In this document: positions 11,799 to 60,468 of the stretch, piece after piece
Position numbering within the stretch: the stretch's first letter is position 1
Layout: the number at the start of each line of letters is the position of its first letter
Source: Dokdonia sinensis
GTDB taxonomy: Bacteria; Bacteroidota; Bacteroidia; Flavobacteriales; Flavobacteriaceae
NCBI RefSeq assembly: GCF_003688895.1
Contig: NZ_REFV01000001.1
Location: forward strand, 351,503-415,502
Reading direction: 5' to 3'
Length of the DNA stretch: 64,000 bases
The notes under the pieces: generated by a model
The model's input: the letters and a program-made list of their open reading frames with translations, nothing else
Database searches by the model: none
Told to the model about the DNA's origin: nothing
Translations under genes and position numbers: made by a program

Positions 11799-12029
11799 TT
11801 AACAGTAACCCACCATTCCCTCACTAAAGGGTAAAAAACTATTGGTAGTAGTTTCCAATCCATTTTTTAAATATGCTACGGCAATATAATTACCTTGATG
11901 GTTTGGTATTTCTGACATTTCCTTAATCTCTCCTGTCAGTAGTCCAAATTCAGCTTCAGGATAATTATCAATTCCTATTCTGACTTTACTATTCAAGGTA
12001 ACTTTATCTCCAAAACTGACAATTGTCAT
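11799..12029 (-). pseudogene. Fragment of an HlyD-type membrane-fusion protein (C-terminal region)
   Basis: A 76-codon frame whose middle (GDKV..KVRIGIDNYPEAEFGLLTGEIKEMS) matches the beta-barrel and hinge region that precedes the end of HlyD-like secretion subunits. The several hundred N-terminal residues, the membrane anchor and any partner ABC transporter are missing. The apparent ATG belongs to the Crp/Fnr box of hemN (12015-12029), so it is probably not a real start, although an AAGGAG lies in front of it. Best read as a decayed remnant; a true small protein cannot be excluded. Confidence 0.5.
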
Positions 12030-12059
12030 AATTCTCCTTAAACACTGAAGTTACTTTTG
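12015..12059 (+). promoter_or_regulatory. Crp/Fnr box plus -7 element of hemN
   Basis: Perfect inverted repeat TGACAATTGTCA (12017-12028). TACTTTTG (12052-12059) lies exactly 33 bp away, centre to centre. Confidence 0.85.
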
Positions 12060-12074
12060 AAAAAACGTAAATTT

Positions 12075-13436
12075 ATGTGTACCCTCACCTCGAAGTATAA
12101 TGTAGCTGGACCTAGATATACCAGTTACCCCACCGTTCCGTATTGGGATAATGATGCCTTTTCTTTAAAACAATGGAAAGAAACCTTAGTAAAAAGCTTT
12201 CGCGAAAGCAATAGTACAGAAGGTATAAGTCTCTATATACACCTTCCATTTTGCGAGAGCCTGTGTACTTTTTGTGGTTGCAATAAACGAATTACTAAAA
12301 ATCATAATGTAGAGTTACCATATATCAAATCTATTCTAAAAGAGTTTATCCTTTACAATGAACTGTTTGATGAGAAACCTATTATCAAGCAAGTTCATCT
12401 AGGTGGTGGGACACCAACTTTTTTTTCTCCGGAGCATTTGGACAGGCTGATGAGTGGTATTTTTACTATCGCCACAAAAGCAGAAAATTGTGAACTCAGT
12501 TTTGAAGGTCATCCTAATAACACGACAAAACAACACTTAGAAGCCCTATTTGAAAATGGATTTACCCGAGTATGCTATGGCGTACAAGACTATAACGATA
12601 GGGTTCAAAAAGCAATTAACCGCGTACAGCCTTATGAGAATGTGCTGATGGCTACTTCACTTGCTCGTGCCGTTGGGTATTCTTCAATAGGCCACGATAT
12701 TATTTATGGATTACCGTTTCAGACACAAAATGATGTTATTAAAACCATTAATAAAACCATCACTTTACAGCCAGATCGTATTGCCTTTTACAGTTACGCA
12801 CACGTTCCTTGGATGAAAGGTAATGGACAGCGCGGTTTTAAGGACATAGACCTTCCTACGGCAGAACAGAAACGCCTGCAATATGAAATAGGTAAAGCGA
12901 TGCTAATCAAAGTAGGATATAAAGAGATTGGTATGGATCACTTTGCGCTTAAAACAGATAGTCTTTATAAAGCACAACAACAAGGCACTATAAATAGAAA
13001 CTTTATGGGTTATAGTGACAGCAAAACCCGATTAATGATAGGTCTTGGCGTGTCCTCTATAAGTGACAGTTGGTATAGCTTTGCACAAAATGTTAAGAAT
13101 GTAGAGGAATATCAAAACTTGGTAGATGATGGGATTTTGCCTGTCTTTAGAGGTCACATACTCAATGATGAAGACCTCATCATTAGAAAGCATATTCTAA
13201 ACTTGATGTGCGCTTTTGAGACCTCTTGGGAAGATGAATCTATGTTTTTCCCTGAACTTCCAGAAATATTAGTAAATCTCATAGAACTGGAAAAAGACGG
13301 TTTAGTCCAGGTATTTTCCAAAAAAATACTGGTTACCGATAAAGGACGTGCTTTTGTGCGTAACATCTGTTTACCATTTGATTTACGCTTAAAGCGAAAG
13401 AAACCAGATACACAGTTATTCTCAATGACTGTTTGA
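12075..13436 (+). CDS. hemN: Oxygen-independent coproporphyrinogen III oxidase
   Basis: 453 residues from the ATG at 12075; the TTG further upstream lies on the -7 element. Radical-SAM cluster cysteines C60, C64 and C67 (CESLCTFCGC), then HLGGGTPTF and the SAM-binding region. It makes protoporphyrinogen-IX under low oxygen, supplying haem for the cbb3 oxidase encoded next door. Control by an Fnr-like box fits its classical regulation. FRES at 42-45 is encoded by a palindrome copy (12196-12209). Confidence 0.96.
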   Translation: MCTLTSKYNVAGPRYTSYPTVPYWDNDAFSLKQWKETLVKSFRESNSTEGISLYIHLPFCESLCTFCGCNKRITKNHNVELPYIKSILKEFILYNELFDEKPIIKQVHLGGGTPTFFSPEHLDRLMSGIFTIATKAENCELSFEGHPNNTTKQHLEALFENGFTRVCYGVQDYNDRVQKAINRVQPYENVLMATSLARAVGYSSIGHDIIYGLPFQTQNDVIKTINKTITLQPDRIAFYSYAHVPWMKGNGQRGFKDIDLPTAEQKRLQYEIGKAMLIKVGYKEIGMDHFALKTDSLYKAQQQGTINRNFMGYSDSKTRLMIGLGVSSISDSWYSFAQNVKNVEEYQNLVDDGILPVFRGHILNDEDLIIRKHILNLMCAFETSWEDESMFFPELPEILVNLIELEKDGLVQVFSKKILVTDKGRAFVRNICLPFDLRLKRKKPDTQLFSMTV

Positions 13437-13517
13437 ACTTTAATTAATTACAGATTAAAAAAGCCGAAAATTGTATCGTAGTCACCTTATAATATTAAAA
13501 AAAGAGTGTCAAATAAT

Positions 13518-13661
13518 TTAATCATTGGCTTGCTCTTCACTCTTATCTCCTTTTATAAGATTCATTACAATAGCTACCATTACAATACAAACGATTGCAA
13601 AAACACCAATTATTGCTGCGCCCATTCCCCAGTTTACGAGGGGTAAAAAAAGTAGATTCAT
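13518..13661 (-). CDS. Small membrane protein, 47 residues
   Basis: An ORF too short for routine calling, starting MNLLFLPLVNWGMG and running through one hydrophobic helix (about 16-38) to a charged tail KGDKSEEQAND. The helix-plus-tail layout resembles small cytochrome-oxidase accessory proteins. It is the last candidate member of the leftward cco operon. Function unknown. Confidence 0.55.
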   Translation of the reverse strand: MNLLFLPLVNWGMGAAIIGVFAIVCIVMVAIVMNLIKGDKSEEQAND

Positions 13662-13678
13662 AATTATTACTTTTAAGA

Positions 13679-13804
13679 TTATTTAATCGGTTTTGAATGT
13701 AAGATCACGAGTACATCTATTGCTCTAAAAAAGAAACCATCAACCAGATATTGAAGTCTTTTAGATGACCTGTCTCTCGTTATTTTTGCCCATTTATAAT
13801 TCAT
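13679..13804 (-). CDS. Possible 41-residue ORF
   Basis: An ATG frame beginning MNYKWAKITRD, with a hydrophobic middle (YLVDGFFFRAIDVLVIL), 11 bp after the TauE/SafE-like gene and 17 bp before the 47-residue ORF. It is supported only by position and composition. With its neighbour it fills the 379-bp gap 13437-13815; nothing else is seen there. Confidence 0.3.
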   Translation of the reverse strand: MNYKWAKITRDRSSKRLQYLVDGFFFRAIDVLVILHSKPIK

Positions 13805-13815
13805 CTTAATTTTTT

Positions 13816-18006: not shown

Positions 18007-20211
18007 TTATTCGTTTACGTTTACAGCAGATGCCTCTGCATTCTTTACTTTAATATCTGTTCCCAACCGTTGTATGTATGCGATTAGGGCAACAACTTCA
18101 CGATTGCGCATCTCAACGAAATCTTCGCCATTTTCTAAAGCATACTTCTTATCTGCCTCATATGTTTTAGCAAAGTCGGGGTCGCTGTATAAGTTTTTCT
18201 CAATCTGTGTTCCTTGTTCAAGCATCCACTCTTGAGCGCGTTCAATATCTTCCATCGTGTAGGGAACGCCCAGCGTGACCATTGCTTCCATCTTATCTTC
18301 TGTATTCGATTTATCTAGCTCCCTATTAATAAGCCATTTATATGATGGCATTATAGAGCCAGACGAGGTACTCTGTGGGTCATAAAAGTGATTCAAATGC
18401 CAGTTATCACTATATTTTCCACCCACGCGTAAGAGGTCCGGTCCTGTACGTTTACTTCCCCAAAGAAATGGATGGTCATATACAAACTCTCCTGCCTTAG
18501 CATACTCGCCATAGCGCTCTACCTCGCTTCTAAAGGGACGTACCATCTGTGAGTGACAGCCTACGCAACCTTCACTTATATAAATATCACGACCTTCGAG
18601 CTCCAGCGGTGTATAGGGTTTTACACTAGATATAATTGGGATATAATCATCAACCATTAAGGATGGAATAATTTGTACCATCCCTCCTATTAAAATCGCA
18701 ATCGTAGCAAAAATGGTCAGTTTTACAGGGCGTCTTTCTAACCAGGTGTGGTATGCCTCTTTAGTTGTACGCTTTTTTGTTACTTTTTCAAGCGGAGCTG
18801 CTTCGGCAAGTTCATCTGTTACTTTAGAACCTGCTCTTGCGGTCATAATTAAATTATACACGCCTATTAAAGCTCCAACGATAAACATACTACCTCCTAT
18901 CGCACGCATCCAGTACATTGGGATAATCTCGCTAAGTGTTTCTAAAAAATTACCATAGGTTAATGTACCGTCCGGATTGAACTGCTTCCACATTGAAGCC
19001 TGAACAAAACCTGCTACGTACATAGGCAAGGCGTACATAATGATTCCTAAAGTTCCTACCCAAAAATGGACGTTTGCCAGTTTAGTTGACCACAGCCTTG
19101 TCTTAAATAGTTTAGGCACCATCCAGTAAACCATACCGAAGGTCAAGAACCCGTTCCAAGCGAGTGCTCCTACGTGTACGTGGGCAATAACCCAATCACT
19201 AAAATGCGCAATCGCGTTCACATTTTTGAGTGAAAGCATCGGTCCTTCAAAGGTTGCCATACCGTAACCCGTGATGGCAACAACCATAAATTTTAAAACA
19301 GGGTCTGTACGTACTTTATCCCAAGCGCCGCGCAGGGTCAAGAGTCCGTTTATCATCCCTCCCCAAGATGGTGCGAGAAGCATTATGGAGAATGCAACCC
19401 CTAAGTTTTGCGCCCAGTCTGGTAAGGAAGAATATAATAAGTGGTGAGGTCCTGCCCAGATGTATATAAAAATCAATGACCAAAAGTGAACAATAGATAA
19501 TCTGTATGAATACACAGGTCTATTTGCAGCTTTAGGTACGAAATAATACATCAGACCTAAAAATGGTGTGGTTAGGAAAAATGCCACCGCATTATGTCCA
19601 TACCACCATTGTACCAAGGCGTCTTGCACACCTGCGTACATTGAGTAACTTTTTAAAGCACCCACGGGAATTGCCATACTGTTTACAATATGCAGTACAG
19701 CAACCGTTACAAAGGTTCCTAAGTAAAACCAAATCGCTACATATAAGTGTCGTTGTCTTCTCTTGAGAATTGTACCGATTAGGTTGGCTCCAAAGATTAC
19801 CCAAATCAATGCAATTGCAATATCAAAAGGCCATTCTAGCTCAGCATATTCTTTTGAAGATGTATATCCTAGTGGTAATGTGATTGCAGCTCCTACAATT
19901 ATGGCTTGCCATCCCCAGAAATTTAGATTACTCATCCAGTCTTTCCACATCCTGGCTTTAAGCAGTCGCTGTGTTGAGTAGTACACTCCCGCAAAAATTG
20001 CATTTCCTACAAAGGCAAAAATCACAGCATTGGTGTGTAACGGGCGTAAACGACCAAAACTTAACCAAGAGATTCCGTCTGTGAGGTTAGGAAATAAGAA
20101 CATAAAGGCTAATAACAGACCCACACTCATTCCTATAATTCCCCAGAACATTGTGGCAATAATGAACTTGCTTACGATTTTATTATCGTAATAAAACTTT
20201 TGTAATTCCAT
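18007..20211 (-). CDS. ccoNO: Fused cbb3 oxidase subunits I and II (CcoN-CcoO)
   Basis: 734 residues. The N-terminal ~480 residues form the 12-helix haem-copper subunit (VQWWYGHNAVAFFLTTPFLGLMYY, IWAGPHHLLY, VIAHVHVGALAWNG). The C-terminal part is the CcoO cytochrome c, with CVGCH at 549-553 and GPDLLRVGGKY. The fused form is usual in Bacteroidota. It is the catalytic core of the high-affinity oxidase. Confidence 0.96.
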   Translation of the reverse strand: MELQKFYYDNKIVSKFIIATMFWGIIGMSVGLLLAFMFLFPNLTDGISWLSFGRLRPLHTNAVIFAFVGNAIFAGVYYSTQRLLKARMWKDWMSNLNFWGWQAIIVGAAITLPLGYTSSKEYAELEWPFDIAIALIWVIFGANLIGTILKRRQRHLYVAIWFYLGTFVTVAVLHIVNSMAIPVGALKSYSMYAGVQDALVQWWYGHNAVAFFLTTPFLGLMYYFVPKAANRPVYSYRLSIVHFWSLIFIYIWAGPHHLLYSSLPDWAQNLGVAFSIMLLAPSWGGMINGLLTLRGAWDKVRTDPVLKFMVVAITGYGMATFEGPMLSLKNVNAIAHFSDWVIAHVHVGALAWNGFLTFGMVYWMVPKLFKTRLWSTKLANVHFWVGTLGIIMYALPMYVAGFVQASMWKQFNPDGTLTYGNFLETLSEIIPMYWMRAIGGSMFIVGALIGVYNLIMTARAGSKVTDELAEAAPLEKVTKKRTTKEAYHTWLERRPVKLTIFATIAILIGGMVQIIPSLMVDDYIPIISSVKPYTPLELEGRDIYISEGCVGCHSQMVRPFRSEVERYGEYAKAGEFVYDHPFLWGSKRTGPDLLRVGGKYSDNWHLNHFYDPQSTSSGSIMPSYKWLINRELDKSNTEDKMEAMVTLGVPYTMEDIERAQEWMLEQGTQIEKNLYSDPDFAKTYEADKKYALENGEDFVEMRNREVVALIAYIQRLGTDIKVKNAEASAVNVNE

Positions 20212-20213: not shown

Positions 20214-20423
20214 TTAAATTGATTGGTCTTTCAAGAGGGTTGATTCTTTGATTTTAGTAGTGTCTGTTGCTTTGTCTTTGACTATTTCATCATCAAAAAG
20301 CATTCGTACGGAAGGTGTGTACGTATCGTCGTATTGTCCTTTTTTTACAGAAAAAATGAAGGCGACAAAAAAGATGAGGGCAACAACAACACTTATTGCA
20401 AGTAGCATATAAATAATACTCAT
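20214..20423 (-). CDS. ccoS: cbb3 maturation protein CcoS
   Basis: 69 residues. N-terminal MSIIYMLLAISVVVALIFFVAFIFSVKKGQYDD is the CcoS helix and its following QxDD motif. It is needed for cofactor insertion into cbb3. First gene of the leftward cco operon, under its own Crp/Fnr-type promoter. Confidence 0.92.
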   Translation of the reverse strand: MSIIYMLLAISVVVALIFFVAFIFSVKKGQYDDTYTPSVRMLFDDEIVKDKATDTTKIKESTLLKDQSI

Positions 20424-20442: not shown

Positions 20443-20486
20443 TAAAACTACTGCTGAAGTAGTTTTTTAAATATGACATTTGTCAG
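20443..20486 (-). promoter_or_regulatory. Crp/Fnr box plus -7 element of the cco operon
   Basis: TGACATTTGTCA (20474-20485) and, 33 bp away, TAGTTTTA (20443-20450, minus strand), with the ccoS start at 20423. Confidence 0.85.
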
Positions 20487-22279: not shown

Positions 22280-22669
22280 TTACACCTCAATATAAAGTAG
22301 CGCAAGTTTTGCCTTTTGCCCTATACGTTGCACTCTTAAAATAAAAGGGCTTGGCAATACTCCTGCACAAGGGCAATTTGCCTTATAACTTATCTCAAAT
22401 TGTGTCACGGCTTGTATTACTTTTTTTAGTATTATGCGCAATTGAGATTGTCCTGTGTTACATAATGCACCTCTAGTGGACTGTTGCACTTTCAAATTTT
22501 CTAACTGTCTTTCCAGATCTATAATCCACTCATCATTTGTTACTGATTTCTTTGTATGAGATGCCTTATAAAACAAGCTTACTATATCCCGTACTTCATA
22601 ATTAACTATTGAGAAAGCAAAGCCAGTCAATGGCAACTTCTGTTGAGTGTTAAGTTGTGTAAACATCAT
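22280..22669 (-). CDS. Hypothetical protein downstream of ccoI
   Basis: 129 residues, unrecognised. It has a helical middle (DLERQLENLKVQQ), a CPCAG motif (about 98-102) and a beta-rich end. The ATG overlaps the ccoI stop, so it is translated with ccoI and ends 22 bp from the convergent DUF3037 gene. The cysteines could bind metal, but that is speculation. Confidence 0.6.
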   Translation of the reverse strand: MMFTQLNTQQKLPLTGFAFSIVNYEVRDIVSLFYKASHTKKSVTNDEWIIDLERQLENLKVQQSTRGALCNTGQSQLRIILKKVIQAVTQFEISYKANCPCAGVLPSPFILRVQRIGQKAKLALLYIEV

Positions 22670-25122
22670 TCTGCGTTTTTTAGATTCGTATGTAATTGTT
22701 GCCCCAAAAAGTAGGTGTATGCCGTTGTAAATACTACGATACTTATAGAGCTAAGAGGCATAAGGATAGCGGCTACTACTGGCGCGAGATTACCCGTGAC
22801 AGCAAATCCTAGTCCTATGAGATTATATAATAGAGAGAAGATAAATGCGTATTGAATCACCTGCTTTCCCTTTCGCGAAAGCGTAATAAACCGCGTTAAA
22901 TTTTTGAAACGAGAGGCATCCAGAATTCCATCACAAGCTGGTGAAAACACATTTATATTTTCTGAAATAACGAGACCTACATCGCTCTGGGCAAGTGCTC
23001 CAGCATCGTTTAGACCATCACCCACCATTAATACACGCTTACCATTGGCTTGGAGGTTCTTTATATACGCGAGCTTATCTGCTGGTTTCTGGTTAAAAAT
23101 TAAATCTGTATGCTCAGGAAGTATTTTTGAGAGGTGCATTTTTTCGCCTTCATTGTCTCCAGAAAGTACGGCCAACTTGCAATCTTGGGCTAGCGACTTA
23201 AATAGGTCCTGCATTCCATCACGATACTCATTGTAGAAGATATAACAGCCTTTATAATTATCGTTAGAACTTATGTGTACGGTGGTCCTGTTTGGATACG
23301 TTTTTGCAAAAGCATTATCTTCTTGTGCAACAAAGGCATATGAGCCCACCTTTATCTGGTTCTGATTTAAAATACCTACAAGGCCTTGTCCAACTTCTTC
23401 CTTAAAATCATCTAGTGTATCAATACCTTGTGATTGCAACATATCGTACAAGGAGCGACTAAGCGGATGATTAGAAGCCCGTAGTGTAGAGGTAAGTAGT
23501 GATTCTTCTTCTGAAGTGAGTGCTATACCTTCGTAGGTAATTACATTTTTGTGATTTGTGGTAAGTGTTCCCGTTTTGTCAAAAACCACGGTGTCAATTG
23601 TGGCGAGTTGCTCTATGACAGTACTATTTTTCAAATATAATTTGTGCCTGCCAAAAATGCGGAGCAAATTCCCCAGCGTAAATGGAGCTGCAAGTGCGAT
23701 GGCACACGGACAAGCTACAATGAGAACTGCAGTAAAGACATTAAGTGCCAGAGATGGCTGGTAGAATAACCAAAATACAGTTGCAAGCACCGCAATACTT
23801 AAAATACTAATCGTAAATCGCTTACTAATCCTGTCTGTAATGTTTTGGAAAACACTACGATTCTCCTTATCAAAAATCTCGTTAGACCACAATTGCGTGA
23901 GGTAACTCTGCTCTACAGTCTTGACTACCTCTAATTCAATAACCCCTGCTTGTTGTCTTCCGCCGGCAAAGAGTTGGTCGCCAGAATTTTTAGCAACAGG
24001 TTCTGCTTCTCCGGTGACGAAGCTATAATCTATAAGCGCGTTTCCTTTAATGAGAATACCGTCTACGGGTATGAGCTCGCCGTGTCTGATAATGATTCGG
24101 TCGCCAGCTACTAGGTCGTAAACTTGAGCTTGTTCTTCTTGAATAGGTTCTGATTCCGCTTTCGCGAAAGCGGAAACTTTAAAATGATTTTTACCATCAT
24201 TTTTAATCAATCGTGTTACCGCAATAGGGAAATACGATTTGTAATCCCGCTCAAAAGAGAGGAATGCATAGGTCTTTTGCTGAAAAAATTTGCCCAGCAA
24301 TAAAAAGAATACTAATCCCGCCATACTGTCTAGAAAGCCAGTTCCCCAATCCATCACAATCTCGACAACAGAGCGTGTAAAAAGCACCAAAATCCCAATA
24401 GCAATAGGCACATCAATATTGAGCATCTTAGAACGAATACTCTTAAAAGCAGAAACGAGGTAGTCACTTCCCGAATAAAAAACCACGGGTAAGGCAAATA
24501 CAAGCATCAAGGCTCTAAACACGTATTTATAACGCTCAAGCCAGAATTCTGAAACCTCAAAATATTCTGGAAACGATAGAAACATAATATTGCCAAAGGC
24601 AAATCCCGCTACGCCTAATTTGTAGATTAGACTTCGGTCTATGTGTGACGCTTTTTTAGTGGCATCGTCTAGAGAGATGTAGGGTTCGTATCCTATTCTA
24701 GCCAGTAATAACACTAGCTTATGTAGTGAATAGTCTTCGGTTGTGTACGTAATGCGTACGGTTTTCTTCGGGAAGTTGACTTGGGCTGTTTTGACCTTTG
24801 GGTTCAATTTATTGAGGTTTTCTAGCACCCAAATGCAGGAACTACAATGTATTGAAGGAATTACAAAAGAAACCACCTGAGTACCCTGCTCATCAAATTC
24901 TAACAGTTTCCTAGCAATTTTCTCATTTTCTAGAAAGTCAAACTTCCCTTCAAAGCGTGATGGTGTCGTGCCAGGTGTTTGCTCCAGCTCGTAATAATAC
25001 GAGAGGTCGCTGTCATTAAGAATATCAAAAACGGTTTTACACCCGTGACAGCAAAAGTGCTTGTCTTGATGCTCGATGTTTGTGTTAACACAGTCATCAC
25101 CACAATGGAAGCATACGTCCAT
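22666..25122 (-). CDS. ccoI: Copper-transporting P1B-type ATPase of cbb3 assembly (CcoI/FixI)
   Basis: 818 residues. It has an N-terminal cysteine zinc-ribbon-like region (C4, C7, C11, C24, C25, C28), an HMA-type domain with CSSC (93-96), membrane helices with the CPC metal site (471-473), phosphorylation D515 in DKTGTLT, and GDGLNDAGAL. It exports copper for the oxidase. It contains one full palindrome copy (24156-24173, giving AFAKA) and one half copy (22871-22883, giving LSRK). Confidence 0.95.
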   Translation of the reverse strand: MDVCFHCGDDCVNTNIEHQDKHFCCHGCKTVFDILNDSDLSYYYELEQTPGTTPSRFEGKFDFLENEKIARKLLEFDEQGTQVVSFVIPSIHCSSCIWVLENLNKLNPKVKTAQVNFPKKTVRITYTTEDYSLHKLVLLLARIGYEPYISLDDATKKASHIDRSLIYKLGVAGFAFGNIMFLSFPEYFEVSEFWLERYKYVFRALMLVFALPVVFYSGSDYLVSAFKSIRSKMLNIDVPIAIGILVLFTRSVVEIVMDWGTGFLDSMAGLVFFLLLGKFFQQKTYAFLSFERDYKSYFPIAVTRLIKNDGKNHFKVSAFAKAESEPIQEEQAQVYDLVAGDRIIIRHGELIPVDGILIKGNALIDYSFVTGEAEPVAKNSGDQLFAGGRQQAGVIELEVVKTVEQSYLTQLWSNEIFDKENRSVFQNITDRISKRFTISILSIAVLATVFWLFYQPSLALNVFTAVLIVACPCAIALAAPFTLGNLLRIFGRHKLYLKNSTVIEQLATIDTVVFDKTGTLTTNHKNVITYEGIALTSEEESLLTSTLRASNHPLSRSLYDMLQSQGIDTLDDFKEEVGQGLVGILNQNQIKVGSYAFVAQEDNAFAKTYPNRTTVHISSNDNYKGCYIFYNEYRDGMQDLFKSLAQDCKLAVLSGDNEGEKMHLSKILPEHTDLIFNQKPADKLAYIKNLQANGKRVLMVGDGLNDAGALAQSDVGLVISENINVFSPACDGILDASRFKNLTRFITLSRKGKQVIQYAFIFSLLYNLIGLGFAVTGNLAPVVAAILMPLSSISIVVFTTAYTYFLGQQLHTNLKNAE

Positions 25123-25154: not shown

Positions 25155-25228
25155 CAAATTTGGTACAATATGGAGTTCTAAAATATGACATATGTCAGCT
25201 TAGCATAAGATTTTGGTATGCACCTTTG
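25155..25228. promoter_or_regulatory. Divergent Crp/Fnr box between ccoI and pta
   Basis: Perfect palindrome TGACATATGTCA (25186-25197). -7-like hexamers lie 33 bp away on both sides: CAAATTTG toward ccoI (25155-25162) and CACCTTTG toward pta (25221-25228), each deviating at the first base. A second pta promoter element TATTTTTG lies at 25285-25292. Confidence 0.75.
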
Positions 25229-31884: not shown

Positions 31885-31928
31885 CAAAGTTAGAAACTTG
31901 AACATCTTTAAAATATGATAAAAGTCAG
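31885..31928 (-). promoter_or_regulatory. Crp/Fnr box plus -7 element of hsp20
   Basis: TATGATAAAAGTCAG (31914-31928) with a perfect TAACTTTG (31885-31892) 33 bp away. Confidence 0.85.
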
Positions 31929-38259: not shown

Positions 38260-38270
38260 AATTAGAAGGT

Positions 38271-39116: not shown

Positions 39117-39139
39117 AGCTTTTATGGTTTTAGTTACCT

Positions 39140-39183: not shown

Positions 39184-39190
39184 TTCCCAG

Positions 39191-39997: not shown

Positions 39998-40018
39998 TGT
40001 AAATAACATTTATCATCA

Positions 40019-40062
40019 CAAATGTATTTTTCTTGAAGCTAGCAGATAATGATAAAAATCAG
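40019..40062 (-). promoter_or_regulatory. Crp/Fnr box plus -7 element of Usp 39191-39997
   Basis: AATGATAAAAATCAG (40048-40062) with a perfect TACATTTG (40019-40026), 33 bp apart. Confidence 0.83.
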
Positions 40063-43475: not shown

Positions 43476-43549
43476 TAAAGTTGGCTATTATAAGAAATCA
43501 TAGCAATGATAAAAGTCATAGATTCTGATAATGCATCGACCTAATTTTG
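43476..43549. promoter_or_regulatory. Divergent Crp/Fnr box between sigma-like and TerB-like genes
   Basis: AATGATAAAAGTCAT (43505-43519). Perfect TAATTTTG (43542-43549) 33 bp to the right; weaker CAACTTTA (43476-43483) to the left, which would give autoregulation of the receiver-Crp operon. Confidence 0.78.
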
Positions 43550-46704: not shown

Positions 46705-46748
46705 CTGACAAAAATCATAGTATACCTTCCAGACCAAAATTACATTTG
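46705..46748 (+). promoter_or_regulatory. Crp/Fnr box plus -7 element of lipoprotein gene
   Basis: CTGACAAAAATCATA (46705-46719) with a perfect TACATTTG (46741-46748), 33 bp apart. This supports the start at 46767. Confidence 0.83.
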
Positions 46749-49537: not shown

Positions 49538-50158
49538 TTATAAGATTTCAATGATTCCTCGTCCCAGTTTCACCCGCCCTTGTTCTTCTAATTTTTTGAG
49601 AATCCTAGAAATCACTACCCGAGAAGAGTATAAATCATCTGCGACTTGCTGGTGATTGTATTTAAGCTTAGCTGTTTTCATCACATCTGCCTTTTCTTTA
49701 ATATATCTAAGTATTCTATCCTCCTTCTTATAAAAAGCAAAGGAGTCTACAAGTTCTAACAGTGTATGTACTCGTTTTTGATATGTATTCAATACGAAGG
49801 ATTGCCAGGAAGGATATTTACCCATCCACTCTTCTGACTTTTCTTTAGGAAGAATGAGCAACTCTGTATCCAGTTGTGCTACAGAGCATACATCGCTCTT
49901 TACTCGTTTAGTCTGGTTTATTAATGTAAGAGAGCACGTCTCACCCGGTCGTATAAAATATAGCACGAGATGCCCATCGTGGTCTTCCCTTAATATTTTA
50001 AGTGCTCCGGATATCATTAGGGGCACACCAATCATATAGCTATTCTTACATACGTGATGCTCTCCTTTTTTGAGGCTTTTAAAAACCCCGAAAGAGAGCA
50101 TTTCTTCTACTAGTTTTTCTTCAAAAATAGCCTTGTATATTTTCTTGAAAGTTTCCAT
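49538..50158 (-). CDS. Crp/Fnr family transcription regulator
   Basis: 206 residues from the ATG at 50158 (METFKKIYKAIF); an upstream ATG would add 11 residues. Beta-roll, dimer helix, and HTH DDLYSSRVVISRILKKLEEQG. It shares the SRVVISR recognition helix with the Crp at 55897, so both may read GTAAC-N4-GTTAC boxes. No Fnr cysteine set. Confidence 0.9.
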   Translation of the reverse strand: METFKKIYKAIFEEKLVEEMLSFGVFKSLKKGEHHVCKNSYMIGVPLMISGALKILREDHDGHLVLYFIRPGETCSLTLINQTKRVKSDVCSVAQLDTELLILPKEKSEEWMGKYPSWQSFVLNTYQKRVHTLLELVDSFAFYKKEDRILRYIKEKADVMKTAKLKYNHQQVADDLYSSRVVISRILKKLEEQGRVKLGRGIIEIL

Positions 50159-50195
50159 AATCTTTATAGATAACAGTCGGAGTTGTTTCAATAAT

Positions 50196-50243: not shown

Positions 50244-51080
50244 TCACATTTTAAACGTAAACACTGGAAGTTTTGAATGATTTGCTATCGCCTCTGCTAT
50301 GCTACCATTAAAGAAATGTGATAAGCCTCTGCGACCGTGGGTGGGGATCGCTAGAGCATCTGCTCCTACTTTTGTAGCGTATTCATAAAGACCGCTCTCA
50401 ATACTATATCCATTTACTATAACAAGATCTTCCCTATGTAAAGGTGTTCCAAACTCTGCTATACTCATAAATTTTTCCATCTTATCCTCTATTTCCCTTG
50501 AGCTTCTGAAGCGGTCTGCTGGAAGATTAACATATACTAGGTCAATTTTAACCTCTAGCTCTTCAAAAAATGGTATAGCGTCTCTATAGGCTTTTACACT
50601 CTCCTCCTTAAAGTCACACGCATATAAAACTCGCTTAGGTAATGCAGTTTCCTCATTTCCTTTTACTACTAGAACAGGAACTTCAGAAGTACGTACAACT
50701 CGTTCCGTATTGGATCCCACAAATTCTTCTCTAAGACCTTTTGCTCCGTGAGAGCCCATTATGACCAAATCTACATCCTGCTCTAGTGCAAGATCATTTA
50801 TTTCTTCAAAAATCTTATAATTTTGAACAGTCTCTGTAACCGTAATGCCATTCAGGTAGGGCTTATCTAGAAACGTTTGAAATTGTTTTTCGGCAAGTTT
50901 CATATGATAAATCGCTTCTGCTACTTCTTGACTTTCATCTTTGGCAAATATGGAATCAGAAAGTCCCATCATATGCATTACTAAAATTTCTGCGTCATAC
51001 GCTTTCGCGAAAGCGGCCGCTACCTCTAGTGCATATTCAGAGTGCTTTGAAAAATCTACGGGAACTAATATCTTATTCAT
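50244..51080 (-). CDS. Double-domain universal stress protein
   Basis: 278 residues. KILVPVDFSKHSEYALEVA start, ATP loop GSHGAKGLREEFVGSNT in domain 1 and a partial loop (PTHGRRGLSHFFNGS) in domain 2. Follows the HPF gene by 10 bp in a box-driven operon. AFAKA is encoded by a palindrome copy (51000-51015). Confidence 0.93.
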   Translation of the reverse strand: MNKILVPVDFSKHSEYALEVAAAFAKAYDAEILVMHMMGLSDSIFAKDESQEVAEAIYHMKLAEKQFQTFLDKPYLNGITVTETVQNYKIFEEINDLALEQDVDLVIMGSHGAKGLREEFVGSNTERVVRTSEVPVLVVKGNEETALPKRVLYACDFKEESVKAYRDAIPFFEELEVKIDLVYVNLPADRFRSSREIEDKMEKFMSIAEFGTPLHREDLVIVNGYSIESGLYEYATKVGADALAIPTHGRRGLSHFFNGSIAEAIANHSKLPVFTFKM

Positions 51081-51090: not shown

Positions 51091-51390
51091 TTAGTGGGTT
51101 TTGAAAATTTCCTTACGCTTGCGCAATTGTCTATCCAGGTCAGAAATAGTTTCTTTCATCGCTGTTTCGAAGTGAACATCTGTGGTAGTAGCAAATAGTC
51201 GAGGTCCCGGACCGCTCAACTCAATCTCGCAAGTGCGATGCGCTGGGTCCTTTGTGTTTTCTTGTTTAAAGAAGACTTGGGCTTTTATGAGCCAAGGATA
51301 CTTCTTGATGAGTTTTTCAAGTCTTTTTCTAGTCAGGGTGTCAAGTGACGCACTCTCCTGCATTTTTACGTATTGAAATAGTATGGTCAT
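51091..51390 (-). CDS. hpf: Ribosome hibernation factor (HPF/RaiA family), short
   Basis: 99 residues: the beta-alpha fold with AQVFFKQENTKDP and ATTTDVHFETAMKETISDLDRQLRKRKE. It inactivates ribosomes in resting cells. First gene of an operon with a Usp, under a Crp/Fnr-type box. Confidence 0.87.
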   Translation of the reverse strand: MTILFQYVKMQESASLDTLTRKRLEKLIKKYPWLIKAQVFFKQENTKDPAHRTCEIELSGPGPRLFATTTDVHFETAMKETISDLDRQLRKRKEIFKTH

Positions 51391-51406: not shown

Positions 51407-51450
51407 CAAAATTAGAAATAACAGCACGCCAAGACTATGACAAATATCAG
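51407..51450 (-). promoter_or_regulatory. Crp/Fnr box plus -7 element of hpf-usp
   Basis: TATGACAAATATCAG (51436-51450) with a perfect TAATTTTG (51407-51414), 33 bp apart. Confidence 0.86.
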
Positions 51451-53444: not shown

Positions 53445-54863
53445 CTATTTTAGTGTTGAGGGACAAACATAGTTTGTTGTCTCAATGCCAGCTTCTTTGA
53501 TACTTTTGTAACCACCTTGAATATCCACCAGATTGTGAATTCCTCTATTTTTTAAAATAGATGCTGCAATCATACTGCGATAGCCACCCGCGCAATGCAC
53601 AAAGAAGGTCTCCTCTTCTGGAAACGCTGCTAGATGATTATTTAAATCTGACAAGGGGGTAAGCTGAGCATTCACGATGTGTTCAGAGTCATATTCTCCT
53701 GGTTTGCGTACGTCAAAAATAGGTGCATTATCTTCCATATCTTCAAGAATACCCTTGAACTGAACAGCCGTGATAGAACTCACTGTATCGTATTCTCTCG
53801 AAGCCTTTTTCCAAGCATCAAAACCTCCTTCAAGATATCCGAGTGTATTATCAAAACCTACTCGAGATAACCTTGTTATGGTTTCCTCAATCCTATCTTT
53901 ATCTGCTATTAATAATATAGGCTGCTTTACATCTTTTATTAAAGCTCCCACCCACGGTGCAAAGCCCCCATCTATACCTATGAAAATAGAGCCCGGGATA
54001 TGACCCTTGGCAAAATCACTTTGATTTCTTACGTCAAGCATCACGGCTCCTGTCTCATTTGCTATGGCTTCAAAAGCCTCTGGAGAAAGCGCATTTTCGC
54101 CTTGAGCGATTACCTTATCAATATCCTTATATCCCTCTTTATTCATCTTGACATTCATAGGAAAATAAGCTGGTGGTGGTAAAAGCCCGTCAGTCACTTC
54201 TTTTACAAATTCCTCCTTTGTCATATCTGCTCGCAAAGCATAATTCATCTCTTTTTGATGCCCTAAGGTATCTACCGTTTCTTTCATCATATTCTTACCA
54301 CAAGCACTACCGGCACCGTGCGCAGGATAAACCAACAATTTGTCGGCTAGAGGCATAATCTTCGTGCGTAAACTATCATACAAAATCCCAGCAAGGTCTT
54401 CTTGTGTCATATGGGTCGCTTTTTGAGCCAGGTCAGGACGACCTACGTCCCCTAGAAAAAGCGTGTCTCCCGTAAAAATCGCATAGTCGTTACCGTTTTT
54501 GTCTTTTAAGAGATAGGTTGTGCTTTCCATTGTATGACCCGGAGTATGCAACACTACAATGGTCAATGCTCCTAATTTGAATTCCTGACCATCTTCTGCA
54601 ATGATGGCCTTAAAATTTGGATTTGCATTGGGCCCATAGACTATGGGAGCTCCTGTCTTTTTGGAAAGCGTGACGTGTCCGCTGACAAAATCTGCGTGAA
54701 AATGGGTTTCAAAAATATATTTGATTTTTCCGCCAGCTTCTTCAGCTTTATCAATGTACGGTTGGACTTCGCGTAAGGGGTCTATTATAGCTATCTCTCC
54801 GTTACTTTCTATATAATATGCACCTTGAGATAAGCAACCTGTATAAATCTGTTCTACTTTCAT
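53445..54863 (-). CDS. MBL-fold persulfide dioxygenase-like protein with two rhodanese domains
   Basis: 472 residues. MBL domain (H54, H56, D58 in THFHADF, H63, HTPGH) for a mononuclear iron centre. Rhodanese 1 (about 255-355) lacks the catalytic Cys (LLIADKDR). Rhodanese 2 has C424 (VHCAGGYRS). Oxidises glutathione-type persulfides and transfers sulfur. Its leader carries a 107-bp repeat between the promoter and the start codon. Confidence 0.92.
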   Translation of the reverse strand: MKVEQIYTGCLSQGAYYIESNGEIAIIDPLREVQPYIDKAEEAGGKIKYIFETHFHADFVSGHVTLSKKTGAPIVYGPNANPNFKAIIAEDGQEFKLGALTIVVLHTPGHTMESTTYLLKDKNGNDYAIFTGDTLFLGDVGRPDLAQKATHMTQEDLAGILYDSLRTKIMPLADKLLVYPAHGAGSACGKNMMKETVDTLGHQKEMNYALRADMTKEEFVKEVTDGLLPPPAYFPMNVKMNKEGYKDIDKVIAQGENALSPEAFEAIANETGAVMLDVRNQSDFAKGHIPGSIFIGIDGGFAPWVGALIKDVKQPILLIADKDRIEETITRLSRVGFDNTLGYLEGGFDAWKKASREYDTVSSITAVQFKGILEDMEDNAPIFDVRKPGEYDSEHIVNAQLTPLSDLNNHLAAFPEEETFFVHCAGGYRSMIAASILKNRGIHNLVDIQGGYKSIKEAGIETTNYVCPSTLK

Positions 54864-54997: not shown

Positions 54998-55041
54998 TAA
55001 AATTAATGAGCTAATTTGATTTAAATAATGACAAATATCAT
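54998..55041 (-). promoter_or_regulatory. Crp/Fnr box plus -7 element of MBL-rhodanese gene
   Basis: AATGACAAATATCAT (55027-55041) with TAATTTTA (54998-55005), 33 bp apart, but 171 bp from the start codon because of the repeat. The usual distance is about 53-76 bp. Confidence 0.78.
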
Positions 55042-55856: not shown

Positions 55857-55902
55857 TAAAAGTAGTGGTCTGTCTCGCTCATTTTTGTAACCTATGTTAC
55901 AA
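55857..55902 (-). promoter_or_regulatory. Type-2 Crp box of TauE/SafE gene
   Basis: Perfect 18-bp palindrome TTGTAACCTATGTTACAA (55885-55902) with TACTTTTA (55857-55864), 33 bp apart. It overlaps the stop of the Crp gene. Confidence 0.8.
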
Positions 55903-56523
55903 GACTTCAATAAAACTACGGTGCATTCTCAATTTTCCTCTATTTTCCATTTTCTTAAGGAGTCTAGAGATTACGACTCTACTTGTATGTAGGTCATTTG
56001 CAATTTCTTTATGAGTTGTATAGATATGTTTACTATTATTAATCTGCATTCTATTGGATAGATAGTTTTCCAGTCGCTCATCCATATTATTGAAAGCGAT
56101 GTTATCTACACTCTCTAAGAGTTCCATCATACGCTCGTGGTAGCTGGCAAAAACAAAGTTGCGCCAGGTCTTAAATTTACCTGACCATTCTTCCATTTTT
56201 TCTACTGGAATCATTAATAGTTTTGCTGGGGTTTCTGAAACTGCGTGAATCTCGCTTTTCTTATTACCTATACAGCAAGTCATCGTCATTGCGCAGGTAT
56301 TTCCTTTTTCAAGATGATATAGGAGCAATTCATCTCCTTCAGTATCCGGGCGCATTATTTTTATACTTCCAGAGAGTAATAAAGGAATTGTTCTAATATA
56401 CTGCCCTGGTTTCATCAAGTCTTGACCTTCTGGAACTTCCATAAAGGTTGCTACTTGATTAATTTCTTCTATAAGCGCTGGCTCAAATTGAGAACCATAA
56501 TGTTTTTTTAATTCTTCTATCAT
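55897..56523 (-). CDS. Crp/Fnr family regulator of the sulfur module
   Basis: 208 residues: beta-roll, CAMTMTCCIG cysteines in the roll (a possible redox or metal site), HTH with SRVVISRLLKKMENRGK. A type-2 box lies in front of it and of the sulfur permease, so it probably regulates itself and the module. Confidence 0.88.
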   Translation of the reverse strand: MIEELKKHYGSQFEPALIEEINQVATFMEVPEGQDLMKPGQYIRTIPLLLSGSIKIMRPDTEGDELLLYHLEKGNTCAMTMTCCIGNKKSEIHAVSETPAKLLMIPVEKMEEWSGKFKTWRNFVFASYHERMMELLESVDNIAFNNMDERLENYLSNRMQINNSKHIYTTHKEIANDLHTSRVVISRLLKKMENRGKLRMHRSFIEVL

Positions 56524-56612: not shown

Positions 56613-57185
56613 CTAAAAACGCCTTCGTAGTCCGCCAGTTATTGATAAAGCACCAAAGGCTAGATTACGGTTCATATCATTAAGTTCATAATTGAATGAA
56701 GCATTACTAAATCGTATTTCTGGAAGTACGTGCCACTTTCCTAGTGATACGATTTTCATCCCAAAACCTAAATGCGTACCTACCGCTATATCTGTTTTAA
56801 AATTAAATGCTGTGAGTGTACTCACAACCTTAACGTCCATAAAAGTCATACCTGCTCTTATGTAAAAGGGATTTTTTTGTTTCTGAAAAATGTTAAAATA
56901 GACCAGTCCTCCTAGCTGAATACCCTTTTGAGTAAACTCAATATTATCTTCCCTATACCCTTCATCTGTATCAAATCTATTCCATATTAGTCCCGTATAA
57001 ATATCTGTGCGCTCTCCCAAACGATAAACGCCTATTAAATCAATGCCGTTGCCTATGCGCAAAGGCTCGTCAATAACTTTACGAGTAGGGAAATGTAATG
57101 TAGGGCGTAATTCTATAGCCCAATGTTCTTGTCCTAAGCCTATTGCAGAAATAAAAATGATGAGGAACTGAAATACTTTTTTCAT
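56613..57185 (-). CDS. Outer-membrane beta-barrel-like protein
   Basis: 190 residues: signal peptide (KKVFQFLIIFISAIGLGQ), alternating strands and a final aromatic-rich GGLRRRF. Probably an 8-strand barrel. Unknown function; in the regulon through the divergent box. Confidence 0.75.
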   Translation of the reverse strand: MKKVFQFLIIFISAIGLGQEHWAIELRPTLHFPTRKVIDEPLRIGNGIDLIGVYRLGERTDIYTGLIWNRFDTDEGYREDNIEFTQKGIQLGGLVYFNIFQKQKNPFYIRAGMTFMDVKVVSTLTAFNFKTDIAVGTHLGFGMKIVSLGKWHVLPEIRFSNASFNYELNDMNRNLAFGALSITGGLRRRF

Positions 57186-57210: not shown

Positions 57211-57284
57211 CAAAATTATTGCGTTAGCTAATTATCAACTATGACATATCTCATAGATTGGCTTACAAAAAGAAATTAATTTTA
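57211..57284. promoter_or_regulatory. Divergent Crp/Fnr box between beta-barrel and WG-repeat genes
   Basis: TATGACATATCTCAT (57240-57254). Perfect TAATTTTG (57211-57218) to the left and TAATTTTA (57277-57284) to the right, both 33 bp from the centre. Confidence 0.85.
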
Positions 57285-58701: not shown

Positions 58702-59205
58702 ATGCACATCCCAAATGACCTTGTGTTGCGCCCTAGATTTACGCTGAAAATGAATTCTTCTCCAGAAAAACTATTGAGCTCTTTTGAAAATACAGGGAAA
58801 ATGACAACAGATTTTGTAATAAGTAGAGTAGATGACCACGTTTTCATACGCATCCCAAAGAAAAAACAACATTTCTGGTCGCCACAGCTACATCTTGAAA
58901 TCTACAGCATAGAAAAACATCCCACCGTGATTAAAGGTCTTTTTGGACCTAGCCCGACGGTATGGACGCTTTTTATGTTTTTACATTTTGTTGTTGCATC
59001 ATTATTCATCGCCGCTGGGATCTGGATGTATACGAACATTGCTTTAGGTGATTCCTTACTAGCACCTCTTATATGTATGATTCTTCTTTTTATTTCTTGG
59101 TTTGTACTCTACATCGCTGGAAGATGGGGAAAGAAATCTGGCCAAAAAGAAATGCAAGCCTTACAGTCATTTATGTACAAAGTACTTTCTAAACAGTTAC
59201 CCTAA
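58702..59205 (+). CDS. Hypothetical two-helix membrane protein
   Basis: 167 residues: an N-terminal beta-rich cytosolic part (residues 1-80), two membrane helices (about 92-115 and 118-140) and a basic tail. No family recognised. The hairpin at 59344-59378 may terminate it. Confidence 0.7.
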   Translation: MHIPNDLVLRPRFTLKMNSSPEKLLSSFENTGKMTTDFVISRVDDHVFIRIPKKKQHFWSPQLHLEIYSIEKHPTVIKGLFGPSPTVWTLFMFLHFVVASLFIAAGIWMYTNIALGDSLLAPLICMILLFISWFVLYIAGRWGKKSGQKEMQALQSFMYKVLSKQLP

Positions 59206-59343
59206 TACGCTCATAGCTAAATATTTATACGCTCATATTGCCAAGACTTTCATTTTGATAAATACATTAATCACAAAGAGCTACATTTTTCTTAGCTAGG
59301 GTGATGTCGGAGATTTATGCTATGGGTCAAACTATAAGTCACA

Positions 59344-59384
59344 AAAGCAGCTATGCACATAGCGTACATAGCTGCTTTCTTTAT
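59344..59384. terminator. Terminator-like hairpin, 12-bp stem
   Basis: AAAGCAGCTATG (59344-59355) pairs with CATAGCTGCTTT (59367-59378). T-rich on both flanks, so it could end the 58702 gene rightward and the putative small RNA leftward. Confidence 0.7.
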
Positions 59385-59500
59385 ACGAAGTAAGATATAT
59401 TGAACTCTACATCTAATTTCTGGAGATATAAATTTTCAGTAATCTTCCTTCTTAGAAAGGCAATCACAAAATAAACTGTGAGTTACCTAGACTTCTCTTA

Positions 59501-59712
59501 AAGTAGGGGCGCTTCAAGCACCCCTACTTCTCTCAAGTTTTTCTTGTACATATCTTCAATCAAAAACTAGATAATCAGACATACCTGTTACCAGTACTAG
59601 CATCTAATCTATTGAGAATATACTCTCGTAAAACTTGAACTAAGATGTCATTAAAGACTTAAGGACATCTAACTTTTATTAATTAATTATCAAAGAGTAA
59701 CTTCTAATAACA
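59501..59712 (-). ncRNA. Candidate Crp/Fnr-controlled small RNA
   Basis: The box-driven promoter at 59716-59759 points left into a 566-bp stretch without genes (59206-59771). Predicted start near 59712. A very stable hairpin, AAGTAGGGG pairing with CCCCTACTT (59501-59509 with 59521-59529, extended inside by GCT/AGC), would lie at its 3' end, giving about 210 nt; a longer form could reach the hairpin at 59344-59378. Only minimal ORFs exist (15 and 17 codons, the latter MYKKNLREVGVLEAPLL across the hairpin). Inference from promoter and structure only. Confidence 0.4.
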
Positions 59713-59715
59713 CTA

Positions 59716-59759
59716 CTAAAGTAATAAGAGCAACTTTCTTAAAATATGACGAATATCAG
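59716..59759 (-). promoter_or_regulatory. Crp/Fnr box plus -7 element facing the geneless region
   Basis: TATGACGAATATCAG (59745-59759) with TACTTTAG (59716-59723, one base off) 33 bp away. Confidence 0.7.
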
Positions 59760-59771
59760 TTTTTGGATTTT

Positions 59772-60374
59772 TCAAAAACTTTTTAGAATTTCGTCAGCAA
59801 ATTCGGCTACTAATAATTTTGCGATATGCACATTAGGTGCCACGACTCCGGGTTCTGCGTTAGGCTTTCCTAGCCAGTAGGCTTTAGACCCTAGAAGTTC
59901 TCCCCCGCGGGATTCTATTGTTTCTTCTAGGATGCGTTGAGCTCTGTCTGTTGTTCCCATTCCCAGAGTGAGGGCCACACATTTCATCCCATCCAGATTT
60001 TGAGTCTTTAAAAAATCCATTGTAGCGGTATCTGGAGCCCAGTTATAGGTATTTGTACAAAAAACAATTAAATCTGCTTGTGCGAGATTACTTTCTTCAA
60101 TAGCCTTAACTGTCAGTACTTGAGCATACCAATTGCTGTTAGAAAGAGTCGTTGCAAATGCTTTACATACTTGCTCATCGAGATTATAGAAAGGGTCCGG
60201 ATTATAGATTATAATTGCATTTCTACTCGCGGTATGAGCTCCTGTTTCCCATACTATTGCTTCGGCCTTTCTCATTACAAAAAGGCTTACAACTAACCAC
60301 AACACCAACATAATACCGACCCCGACAAGTATCGCTTTCCAAAAATCACTAAGGGATATCCATTTAATCATCAC
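59772..60374 (-). CDS. Membrane-anchored flavodoxin-like protein
   Basis: 200 residues: an N-terminal membrane helix (AILVGVGIMLVLWLVVSLFVM), then a flavodoxin-like alpha/beta domain (AIIIYNPDPFYNLDEQVCKAFATTL, DLIVFCTNTYNWAP, LTLGMGTTDRAQRILEETI). It may be an NADPH-FMN reductase or electron carrier; an FMN site is not certain. Divergently controlled with the patatin gene. Confidence 0.7.
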   Translation of the reverse strand: MMIKWISLSDFWKAILVGVGIMLVLWLVVSLFVMRKAEAIVWETGAHTASRNAIIIYNPDPFYNLDEQVCKAFATTLSNSNWYAQVLTVKAIEESNLAQADLIVFCTNTYNWAPDTATMDFLKTQNLDGMKCVALTLGMGTTDRAQRILEETIESRGGELLGSKAYWLGKPNAEPGVVAPNVHIAKLLVAEFADEILKSF

Positions 60375-60395
60375 TTTAAGTATTTTAGGTCAATT

Positions 60396-60468
60396 CAAAT
60401 ATGATATTTTATCAAAGTATAACCAATGATATTGGTCATAGCATACTGGAACACTTTTAGCATCTTTG
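60396..60468. promoter_or_regulatory. Divergent Crp/Fnr box between flavodoxin-like and patatin genes
   Basis: AATGATATTGGTCAT (60425-60439). CATATTTG (60396-60403) to the left and CATCTTTG (60461-60468) to the right, each 33 bp from the centre and off consensus only at base 1. Confidence 0.75.

Follow-up and report, generated by a model that had tools for sequence, protein, structure and literature searches.

A FixL-like kinase and a receiver-Crp protein as probable regulators of a clustered regulon with 33-bp promoter geometry in Dokdonia sinensis

Introduction

Why do so many genes in one neighbourhood of the Dokdonia sinensis genome carry the same palindromic box at the same distance from their promoters, and which protein reads it? 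The neighbourhood lies in a stretch of 64,000 nucleotides (C1:351503-415502; contig NZ_REFV01000001.1 of assembly GCF_003688895.1), here called the window; coordinates without a contig prefix are window positions. Transcription in Bacteroidota uses an unusual promoter, and to our knowledge few activator sites with a defined geometry are known in this phylum. An earlier note on this DNA had proposed that 16 boxes in the window belong to a Crp/Fnr-type class II regulon of low-oxygen and growth-arrest content. The spacing of the boxes and their footprints in relatives support this proposal, and the present analysis adds that the regulon is confined to its neighbourhood, that the box is polar, that one regulator is indicated and that a FixL-like sensor accompanies it.

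The reading that we prefer, with a probability of about 0.78, is that a fusion of a receiver domain with a Crp-type protein (REC-Crp) and a FixL-like histidine kinase drive a class II low-oxygen or low-energy regulon at these boxes. It is built on the geometry of the sites, their conservation at orthologs, their clustering, their co-occurrence with REC-Crp and the domain make-up of the proteins, from which we infer that REC-Crp binds the boxes and activates transcription, that the kinase carries heme and transfers phosphate to REC-Crp, and that the signal is oxygen.

Results

The boxes and their spacing in the window

Boxes were defined by the pattern TGAYNNNNRTCA and the paired element by TAnnTTTG (six fixed bases), and distances were measured from centre to centre. 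All 16 proposed boxes are present, each one or two bases downstream of where it had been placed; 15 are exact, and the box at 57242 (TGACATATCTCA) has one mismatch. The TAnnTTTR-like element said to accompany every box was found at all 16, centred exactly 33.0 bp away and matching five or six of the six bases: six at 12017, 43507 and 46706 on the plus strand and at 31916, 39171, 40050, 51438 and 57242 on the minus strand, five at the other eight. Five exact boxes had been overlooked. Four of them (1545, 17343, 32300 and 47846) have no octamer at 33 bp on either side; the fifth, 53416, has a 5/6 octamer on its plus side, where no plus-strand gene follows, and points antisense into the gene 53445-54863.

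The null for the window was 200 dinucleotide shuffles, and that for the genome and loci scans was the reversed pattern. Shuffled windows contained 4.06 boxes on average (maximum 12), close to the four or so chance boxes that had been predicted, versus 20 exact boxes in the real sequence. As had also been predicted, chance boxes showed no fixed spacing: the shuffles held 0.08 pair orientations at 33 bp (maximum 2) versus 17 in the window, a count that is made on exact boxes only and includes 53416 and the pta-facing side of 25186. Pairs in the window are thus commoner than in shuffled sequence, and every other distance from 12 to 60 bp holds at most one. The base flanking the box on the promoter side is T in 16/16 window sites; on the far side it is C in 12 and A in 4.

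Conservation in relatives and the class II position

Related loci were taken from the surroundings of REC-Crp homologs, the best 80 of at least 519 such loci being used (1,588,919 bp). Exact TAnnTTTG lies 33 bp from 215 box orientations in these loci, 34 bp from 18 and 35 bp from 5, and the other distances from 10 to 70 bp hold at most 8 orientations each. The 33-bp distance, which had been called invariant, is therefore invariant within the window but not among the relatives. The reversed box occurs in 148 orientations versus 1,160 for the real one, none of them with the element at 33 bp. All 80 loci have at least one pair, and a hexamer matching 5/6 or better stands at 33 bp on one or both sides of 397 of the 499 non-redundant boxes.

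Footprints at orthologs were counted in non-redundant upstream regions. To see whether any region had entered the Usp rows twice, each was assigned to its best query, which altered no row. The pair is present in 228 of 314 regions upstream of orthologs of 18 first genes and in none of the 285 regions of 11 operon-internal, regulator or non-target genes (kinase 0/34, REC-Crp 0/63, dnaJ 0/17, ccoP 0/20, ccoG 0/28, internal Usp genes 0/19 and 0/5, deoC 0/33, PNP 0/33, MBL-RMMBL 0/13, Mrr 0/20). The gene ccoN scored 1/33 in one count, as ccoS separates it from the site, and 17/18 among the control rows because its upstream stretch extends across ccoS.

A logo of 167 non-redundant sites, preselected for an exact box and an exact TAnnTTTG, reads A-A-N-C/A-TGAY-AWWT-RTCA-T-W-T-T-T-T, followed by a low-information spacer and TAnnTTTG. 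The two flanks of the box differ, which makes it polar. On the promoter side T stands in 98 % of the logo sites and in 154/154 one-way flavobacterial sites; on the far side the latter have C (97 sites), A (41), G (11) or T (5). Exceptions among the target orthologs are one ccoS (C) and the MBL-rhodanese gene (G). As a universal rule the T flank had to be rejected, the boxes on Cytophagales plasmids often having G. The T-run that follows the box would fall at the position of the Bacteroidota -33 element. In 11 of 180 strong sites the second side, too, shows a hexamer match of 5/6 or more at 33 bp (mean 2.9 and maximum 8 at other spacings), which is suggestive only of two-way promoters served by a single box, 57242 being the best case in the window. 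The rule that two-way sites have a T flank on both sides held in 10 of 18 and was dropped.

A distance of -41.5 from the transcription start is the textbook position of class II activators. In the start-site map of F. psychrophilum TAnnTTTG occupies -12 to -5 (PMC9723704), so that the same -7 element and start distance put the box centre at -41.5 (-8.5 minus 33), the class II position. From the spacing and this map the sites are predicted to be class II Crp promoters. It is very improbable, in our view, that they are instead repressor operators or functionless marks of a promoter block copied with Usp genes: some sites may have a common descent, given that several of the targets are Usp genes in tandem, but the pair is retained in relatives by the unrelated ccoS, hpf and hsp20, the stretch from box to -7 element has a fixed length and little information in the 167 logo sites, and -41.5 is where a class II activator binds.

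Genome-wide scan and clustering

The genome comprises 3,647,482 bp in 43 contigs. A scan of it over 31 spacings, which the earlier note had suggested, gave 13 exact pairs, 9 at exactly 33 bp and 4 elsewhere, compared with 6 in the reversed control, which had none at 33 bp. With one mismatch allowed, there were 25 pairs versus 4 in the control. Eight of the nine exact pairs lie within 52 kb, one of them (C1:415871) just beyond the window, and 20 of the 25 looser pairs, counting 25186 on its pta side and the questionable 53416, fall in the island C1:363519-C1:417923, that is, in 1.5 % of the genome. The one-mismatch pairs outside the island lie on contigs C8, C11 and C40 (two); judged by flank and position they are mostly chance, the reversed control giving 4 as well, and the one at C11:21100 falls inside an open reading frame (ORF). 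The ninth exact pair, C5:106911, is situated 19 bp beyond the ORF of another Crp-family protein (C5 Crp) and precedes a 94-aa ORF. The box alone is mildly enriched in the genome (270 versus 177), and the signal is thus the box plus the spacing.

Clustering was tested in 13 of 17 REC-Crp-positive genomes, pairs on contigs other than that of REC-Crp being scored as distant; the fragmented genomes G002, G005, G007 and G010 were left out. Within 40 kb of REC-Crp lie 75 of the 137 exact pairs, and the binomial P is 6.5e-5 or lower in 12 of the 13 genomes. The fragmented genomes have 7 of 21 pairs within this distance (1/5, 1/5, 4/9 and 1/2, in the above order). All these genomes are relatives of one another and do not count as independent samples.

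The candidate regulator

REC-Crp (40076-41125, minus strand) consists of a receiver domain (PF00072, 3.2e-29), a cNMP-binding fold (PF00027, 1.7e-16) and HTH_Crp (PF13545, 1.2e-11), the latter two matches both being above cut-off. Its closest named homologs are from Dokdonia (78-82 % identity), and the phospho-acceptor region of the receiver, CDIMMP, is conserved in 80 orthologs and in the protein itself. A single-sequence AlphaFold model had a pLDDT of 34.9, too low to use.

Five proteins of the genome match HTH_Crp_2, three of them encoded inside the window. The recognition helix is GIATESLIR in REC-Crp and GTATESCIR in C5 Crp, and we take its E and R to be the counterparts of positions 181 and 185 of CRP, which read TGA. 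The other three Crp proteins have P or V in place of E. These include the two short Crp-family proteins of the window (49538-50191 and 55897-56523, both on the minus strand), which are unlikely to bind the box because their helix lacks the E of TGA-readers. The E and R of the GE..R pocket of CRP are cAMP contacts, and FNR proper holds a 4Fe-4S cluster with four cysteines. In REC-Crp the GE..R of mycobacterial CRP (3h3u) is GF..Y, so that the cAMP contacts are absent, and the single cysteine, residue 51, lies in the receiver domain; REC-Crp is thus not FNR proper and should have no Fe-S cluster. With neither cAMP contacts nor Fe-S cysteines, its input should arrive by phosphorylation.

REC-Crp was compared with the number of pairs in 18 genomes of the genus, presence being called for a match of at least 346 of 349 residues; absences are weak evidence in five of the genomes, which are less than 90 % complete (76-89 %). 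The 12 genomes with REC-Crp have 9, 5, 8, 5, 7, 9, 9, 7, 2, 11, 8 and 13 exact pairs, the six without it 1, 0, 1, 1, 1 and 0 (Mann-Whitney P 4e-4, kinship ignored), and the reversed control gave 4 over all 18. The cbb3 oxidase gene for CcoNO is present in 11 of the 12 and in none of the six, the genome lacking it being G010, whose REC-Crp stands at 53 %. Domain matches, helix and co-occurrence together make REC-Crp the likely activator of the boxes.

Could another Crp/Fnr protein, namely C5 Crp with its CENC N-terminus, or several such proteins, be the activator, and REC-Crp a passenger or a sharer of the sites? C5 Crp has the same E...R helix and an exact pair 19 bp beyond its ORF, and in genomes without full-length REC-Crp pairs lie near short Crp genes (G022 C11, G026 C17). 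Orthologs of C5 Crp (at least 59 % identity) are, however, found in only 5 of the 18 genus genomes, which have 9, 11, 13, 1 and 0 pairs. They are absent from 9 of the 12 REC-Crp-positive genomes, which nevertheless have 2-9 pairs, and the two genomes that have C5 Crp without REC-Crp have 1 and 0. C5 Crp thus does not track the pairs across the genus, and in 12 of 13 genomes the pairs are concentrated within 40 kb of REC-Crp. We regard this alternative as improbable, though less so than the repressor or relic reading, and retain REC-Crp as the likely activator. It can be added about C5 Crp that its N-terminal motif is of the C-x2-C type, and that its orthologs in G011, G014 and G015 have an exact pair no further than about 1 kb away, that in G017 none.

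The sensor kinase

Just upstream of REC-Crp, at 41122-42642 on the minus strand, lies the gene of a histidine kinase with two PAS domains, HisKA and HATPase (Pfam), the likely partner of REC-Crp. Among PDB entries the first PAS domain (PAS1) matches FixL best (1d06, E 4.9e-14); further matches are to PAS domains of oxygen sensors, again of FixL and also of DosP. In an alignment of this domain with those of 78 of the 80 related loci (the other two have no upstream kinase ORF in the stretch), H67 and R81 are invariant (79/79) and R87 is found in 74/79; H67 aligns with what we take to be the proximal heme histidine of FixL. PAS1 is thus a FixL-like candidate heme PAS, which probably binds heme.

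Directly upstream of the kinase gene there is a 251-aa gene (42694-43449, minus strand) that weakly resembles ECF sigma factors, its match to TIGR02937 (E 1.2e-7) staying under the cut-off; if the resemblance is real, the regulator operon contains a sigma-like protein.

The genes behind the sites

Each site (box plus -7 element) is given here with its strand, the match of its hexamer and the fraction of orthologs that have the pair. Among the targets that had been proposed, those backed by the footprints in relatives are ccoS with the cco operon, the CcoI-type ATPase, hsp20, four Usp units and hpf-usp. The site TAGTTTTA (20443-20485, minus, 5/6) precedes ccoS (20214-20423), the first gene of the cco operon, and is conserved at 27/27 orthologs (37/37 with duplicate loci); behind ccoS, 18007-20211 (minus) encodes the CcoN-CcoO fusion of a cbb3 oxidase (profile NF011053). 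The site CAAATTTG (25155-25197, minus, 5/6; 8/8) stands before the gene of a CcoI-type P-type ATPase (22666-25122) and TAACTTTG (31885-31927, minus, 6/6; 10/11) before hsp20 (31414-31845). Six tandem Usp genes on the minus strand (34735-40009), which encode proteins of 272-286 aa, about double the Usp length and all matching Pfam Usp, make up four regulated units. Their sites, all on the minus strand, are TATTTTTA (35610-35652, 5/6; 25/29) before 34735-35586, TAATTTTA (36517-36559, 5/6; 6/6) before 35650-36498, TAGCTTTG (39140-39182, 6/6; 31/34) before the operon 38271-37399-36557, whose internal genes have no pair (0/19 and 0/5), and TACATTTG (40019-40061, 6/6; 6/6) before 39191-40009. The last of these, with its box at 40050, lies downstream of REC-Crp and points at the Usp gene, and the receiver-Crp locus, which had been listed as a target, falls away. 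Upstream of hpf (51091-51390) and the Usp gene 50244-51080 lies TAATTTTG (51407-51449, minus, 6/6); orthologs of hpf have the pair in 22/26 cases, those of the Usp gene itself in 30/51.

Footprints also back some further genes: a 134-aa gene (31933-32337) behind TACTTTTA (32357-32399, minus, 5/6; 5/5), the operon of a 135-aa gene (43568) and a dnaJ-like gene (43985) behind TAATTTTG (43507-43549, plus, 6/6; 56/61), a 300-aa gene (likely ATG at 46767), with a thioredoxin gene (47691) downstream, behind TACATTTG (46706-46748, plus, 6/6; 21/47), and an outer-membrane protein gene (56613-57185; 4/4). The latter is faced by the minus side of the box 57242-57253, which has a -7 element at 33 bp on both sides (57211-57284; 6/6 on the minus and 5/6 on the plus strand); the plus side leads to a WG-repeat gene at 57313 and then to a peroxiredoxin gene (0/2). 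The site TAATTTTA (54998-55040, minus, 5/6) precedes the MBL-rhodanese gene 53445-54863 and recurs at its single ortholog (1/1, flank G there).

The case of hemN is mixed: its site TACTTTTG (12017-12059, plus, 6/6; likely ATG at 12075) is one of the exact genome matches, but only 5/37 orthologs have the pair. Two proposed targets were given up, pta-ackA, where the hexamer is 5/6 but the box faces away (flank G on that side; 0/1), and the patatin gene at the box 60427, where the hexamer lies at 32 bp (1/7). The site CATATTTG (60396-60438, minus, 5/6) precedes a flavodoxin-like gene (59772-60374; 0/2), whose Pfam match is below cut-off. Although the samples are small, the values for pta, WG-repeat, flavodoxin and patatin were counted against their being targets.

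The remaining site, TACTTTAG (59716-59758, minus, 5/6), faces about 500 bp (59206-59716) with no gene, the minus strand having no ORF of 30 aa in 59100-59800. Folding shows a strong hairpin, AGTAGGGG...CCCCTACTTT (about 59500-59528), some 180-215 nt past the expected start of this promoter, and the stretch is possibly a regulated small RNA. A blastn search of 59206-59716 against up to 109 related loci found a single 32-bp match, over the box end; a terminator scan of 59000-60500 found none by its rule, though the fold shows the hairpin, and an Rfam scan of the window found one tRNA and nothing else.

Beyond the end of the window, the exact pair of C1:415871-415945 faces a MlaE permease gene, the start of a Mla-type operon that closes the window; another exact box lies 32 bp upstream of this pair. 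A looser pair at C1:417881 precedes another Usp gene.

The gene content bears on the signal. It is possible, though we think it doubtful, that the same regulator answers to nitric oxide, starvation, redox or energy state and governs a general growth-arrest programme, which would be compatible with our preferred reading. Usp, Hsp20, DnaJ-type and Hpf proteins are growth-arrest products, and thioredoxin, peroxiredoxin and sulfur transporter genes are found in or near the island; the truncated hemoglobins beside one plasmid copy, described below, could handle nitric oxide. On the other hand, cbb3 oxidase, CcoI and hemN together with a FixL-like PAS make up the classic set for low oxygen. In F. 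psychrophilum, oxygen limitation induces cbb3 and heme synthesis (PMC9723704).

Spread beyond the genus and plasmid copies

A phylum sample of 198 genomes was scanned with the flank fixed. All 18 other members of the family had pairs (109 in total, control 0), 28 genomes of the same class outside the order had 42 (control 1), and 149 genomes of other classes had 23, in 15 genomes (control 4). The 33-bp geometry is thus a rule of the family and its relatives.

REC-Crp-like proteins were found in 13 plasmid records, and six of them, from Hymenobacter, Runella or Spirosoma, cover at least 80 % of the query. The neighbourhoods of five of these six plasmids were examined (six stretches; three of the plasmids have 62-63 % GC there). 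On pHsw1 of Hymenobacter swuensis, which is typed as mobilizable, the regulator and kinase lie by two truncated hemoglobins, a P-type ATPase, ccoS, ccoN and ccoG, and fixH, tauE, two usp genes, hemF and hemA are also among the neighbours. The H. canadensis plasmid has genes for thioredoxin, a mechanosensitive channel, a P-type ATPase, TauE, MBL, YeeE and DUF6691, kinds shared with the window. In H. psoromatis cytochrome bd is beside regulator and kinase, and MBL, TauE and thioredoxin genes lie in the Runella neighbourhood; that of the Spirosoma oryzicola plasmid had none of those gene kinds. A hexamer of 5/6 or better stands 33 bp from 11 box orientations in the five plasmids, and no other distance from 15 to 55 bp accounts for more than 4. 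The Hymenobacter plasmids have tandem boxes, 22-23 bp apart, the nearer one mostly 33 bp from a hexamer, which is possibly a class I plus II arrangement.

Discussion

The proposed course of events is as follows. The kinase (41122-42642) would sense low oxygen or redox, probably through a heme in PAS1, and would phosphorylate the receiver domain of REC-Crp. The active REC-Crp dimer would then bind the box at -41.5, beside the T-rich stretch at the position of the -33 element, and recruit RNA polymerase with the primary sigma factor at TAnnTTTG (-12 to -5). Nearly all promoters switched on in this way would lie within about 55 kb, and their products would include cbb3 oxidase with its metal pump, the oxygen-independent route to heme, Usp, Hsp20 and DnaJ-type proteins and the ribosome hibernation factor.

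Several observations weigh against this scheme. The presence of REC-Crp is confounded with that of the island, since targets come and go with the island. Exact pairs also occur without full-length REC-Crp, 15 in G020 (a genome 80 % complete), 15 in G022 and 10 in G026, which makes the geometry a rule of the family in general and not a signature of REC-Crp. Of the 7 pairs of G030, just one is close to REC-Crp (P 0.14). The helix of C5 Crp is nearly identical to that of REC-Crp, and the sites could be shared. A flank-G pair, which we ascribe to chance, recurs far from the island in G002, G003, G006, G008, G009 and G012. The footprints are thin for hemN (5/37) and partial for the 300-aa gene (21/47). 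A histidine like that of PAS1 is common in FixL-like PAS domains of unproven heme binding. Finally, autoregulation of REC-Crp and the kinase was considered and rejected, their orthologs having the pair in 0/63 and 0/34 cases. The H. psoromatis plasmid copy has a 5/6 pair before its kinase; autoregulation may differ by lineage.

It is instructive to compare the scheme with known systems. The FixL-FixJ-FixK cascade of rhizobia shares with it a FixL-like PAS kinase, a Crp-family end regulator and the targets cbb3, CcoI/FixI and hemN. It differs in that the targets here are packed around the regulator genes and the promoter is TAnnTTTG; moreover, receiver and Crp output are one protein, thus the transcription step from FixJ to fixK is missing. 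The likeness to Anr and DosR regulons that the earlier note had drawn holds for the content but not for the wiring. Fnr and Anr of Proteobacteria also use a palindrome of the TGA-N6-TCA type at -41.5 and have cbb3, hemN and Usp targets, whereas REC-Crp has a receiver domain and a single cysteine. DosR of mycobacteria shares heme-based sensing, Usp and alpha-crystallin genes and the dormancy theme; it is a NarL/LuxR-type regulator with another site, whereas the output domain of REC-Crp is HTH_Crp. The nearest published match in content that we found is NmpRSTU of Myxococcus xanthus, a two-component oxygen regulon of seven promoters and 23 genes with a heme-dependent kinase (PMC11841059). It shares a Usp gene, cbb3, a P-type ATPase and HemN, and differs in its NtrC-like regulator, sigma-54 promoters, protoglobin sensor and binding site. 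The words Crp and Fnr do not occur in the main text of the F. psychrophilum study (PMC9723704), and in searches of the open-licence PMC literature, read as titles and abstract openings, we found no receiver-Crp regulon, flavobacterial Crp/Fnr regulon or promoter rule of this kind.

As 228 non-redundant target upstream regions obey one rule, the 43-bp pattern can be used to predict the members of the regulon in one genome after another. We lean, with some reserve, towards seeing in the locus a self-contained, partly mobile low-oxygen programme of Bacteroidota, in which the roles of FixL, FixJ and FixK are condensed into a FixL-like kinase and a receiver-Crp fusion, and nearly all of the regulon sits in one neighbourhood, on a chromosome or a plasmid, under a base-exact promoter grammar. 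The results suggest how an abundant marine and soil family readies itself for low oxygen and dormancy. They also offer a case where a regulon may be inherited and moved as a single neighbourhood, and with it a clean test of why genes of the same regulon would stay together.

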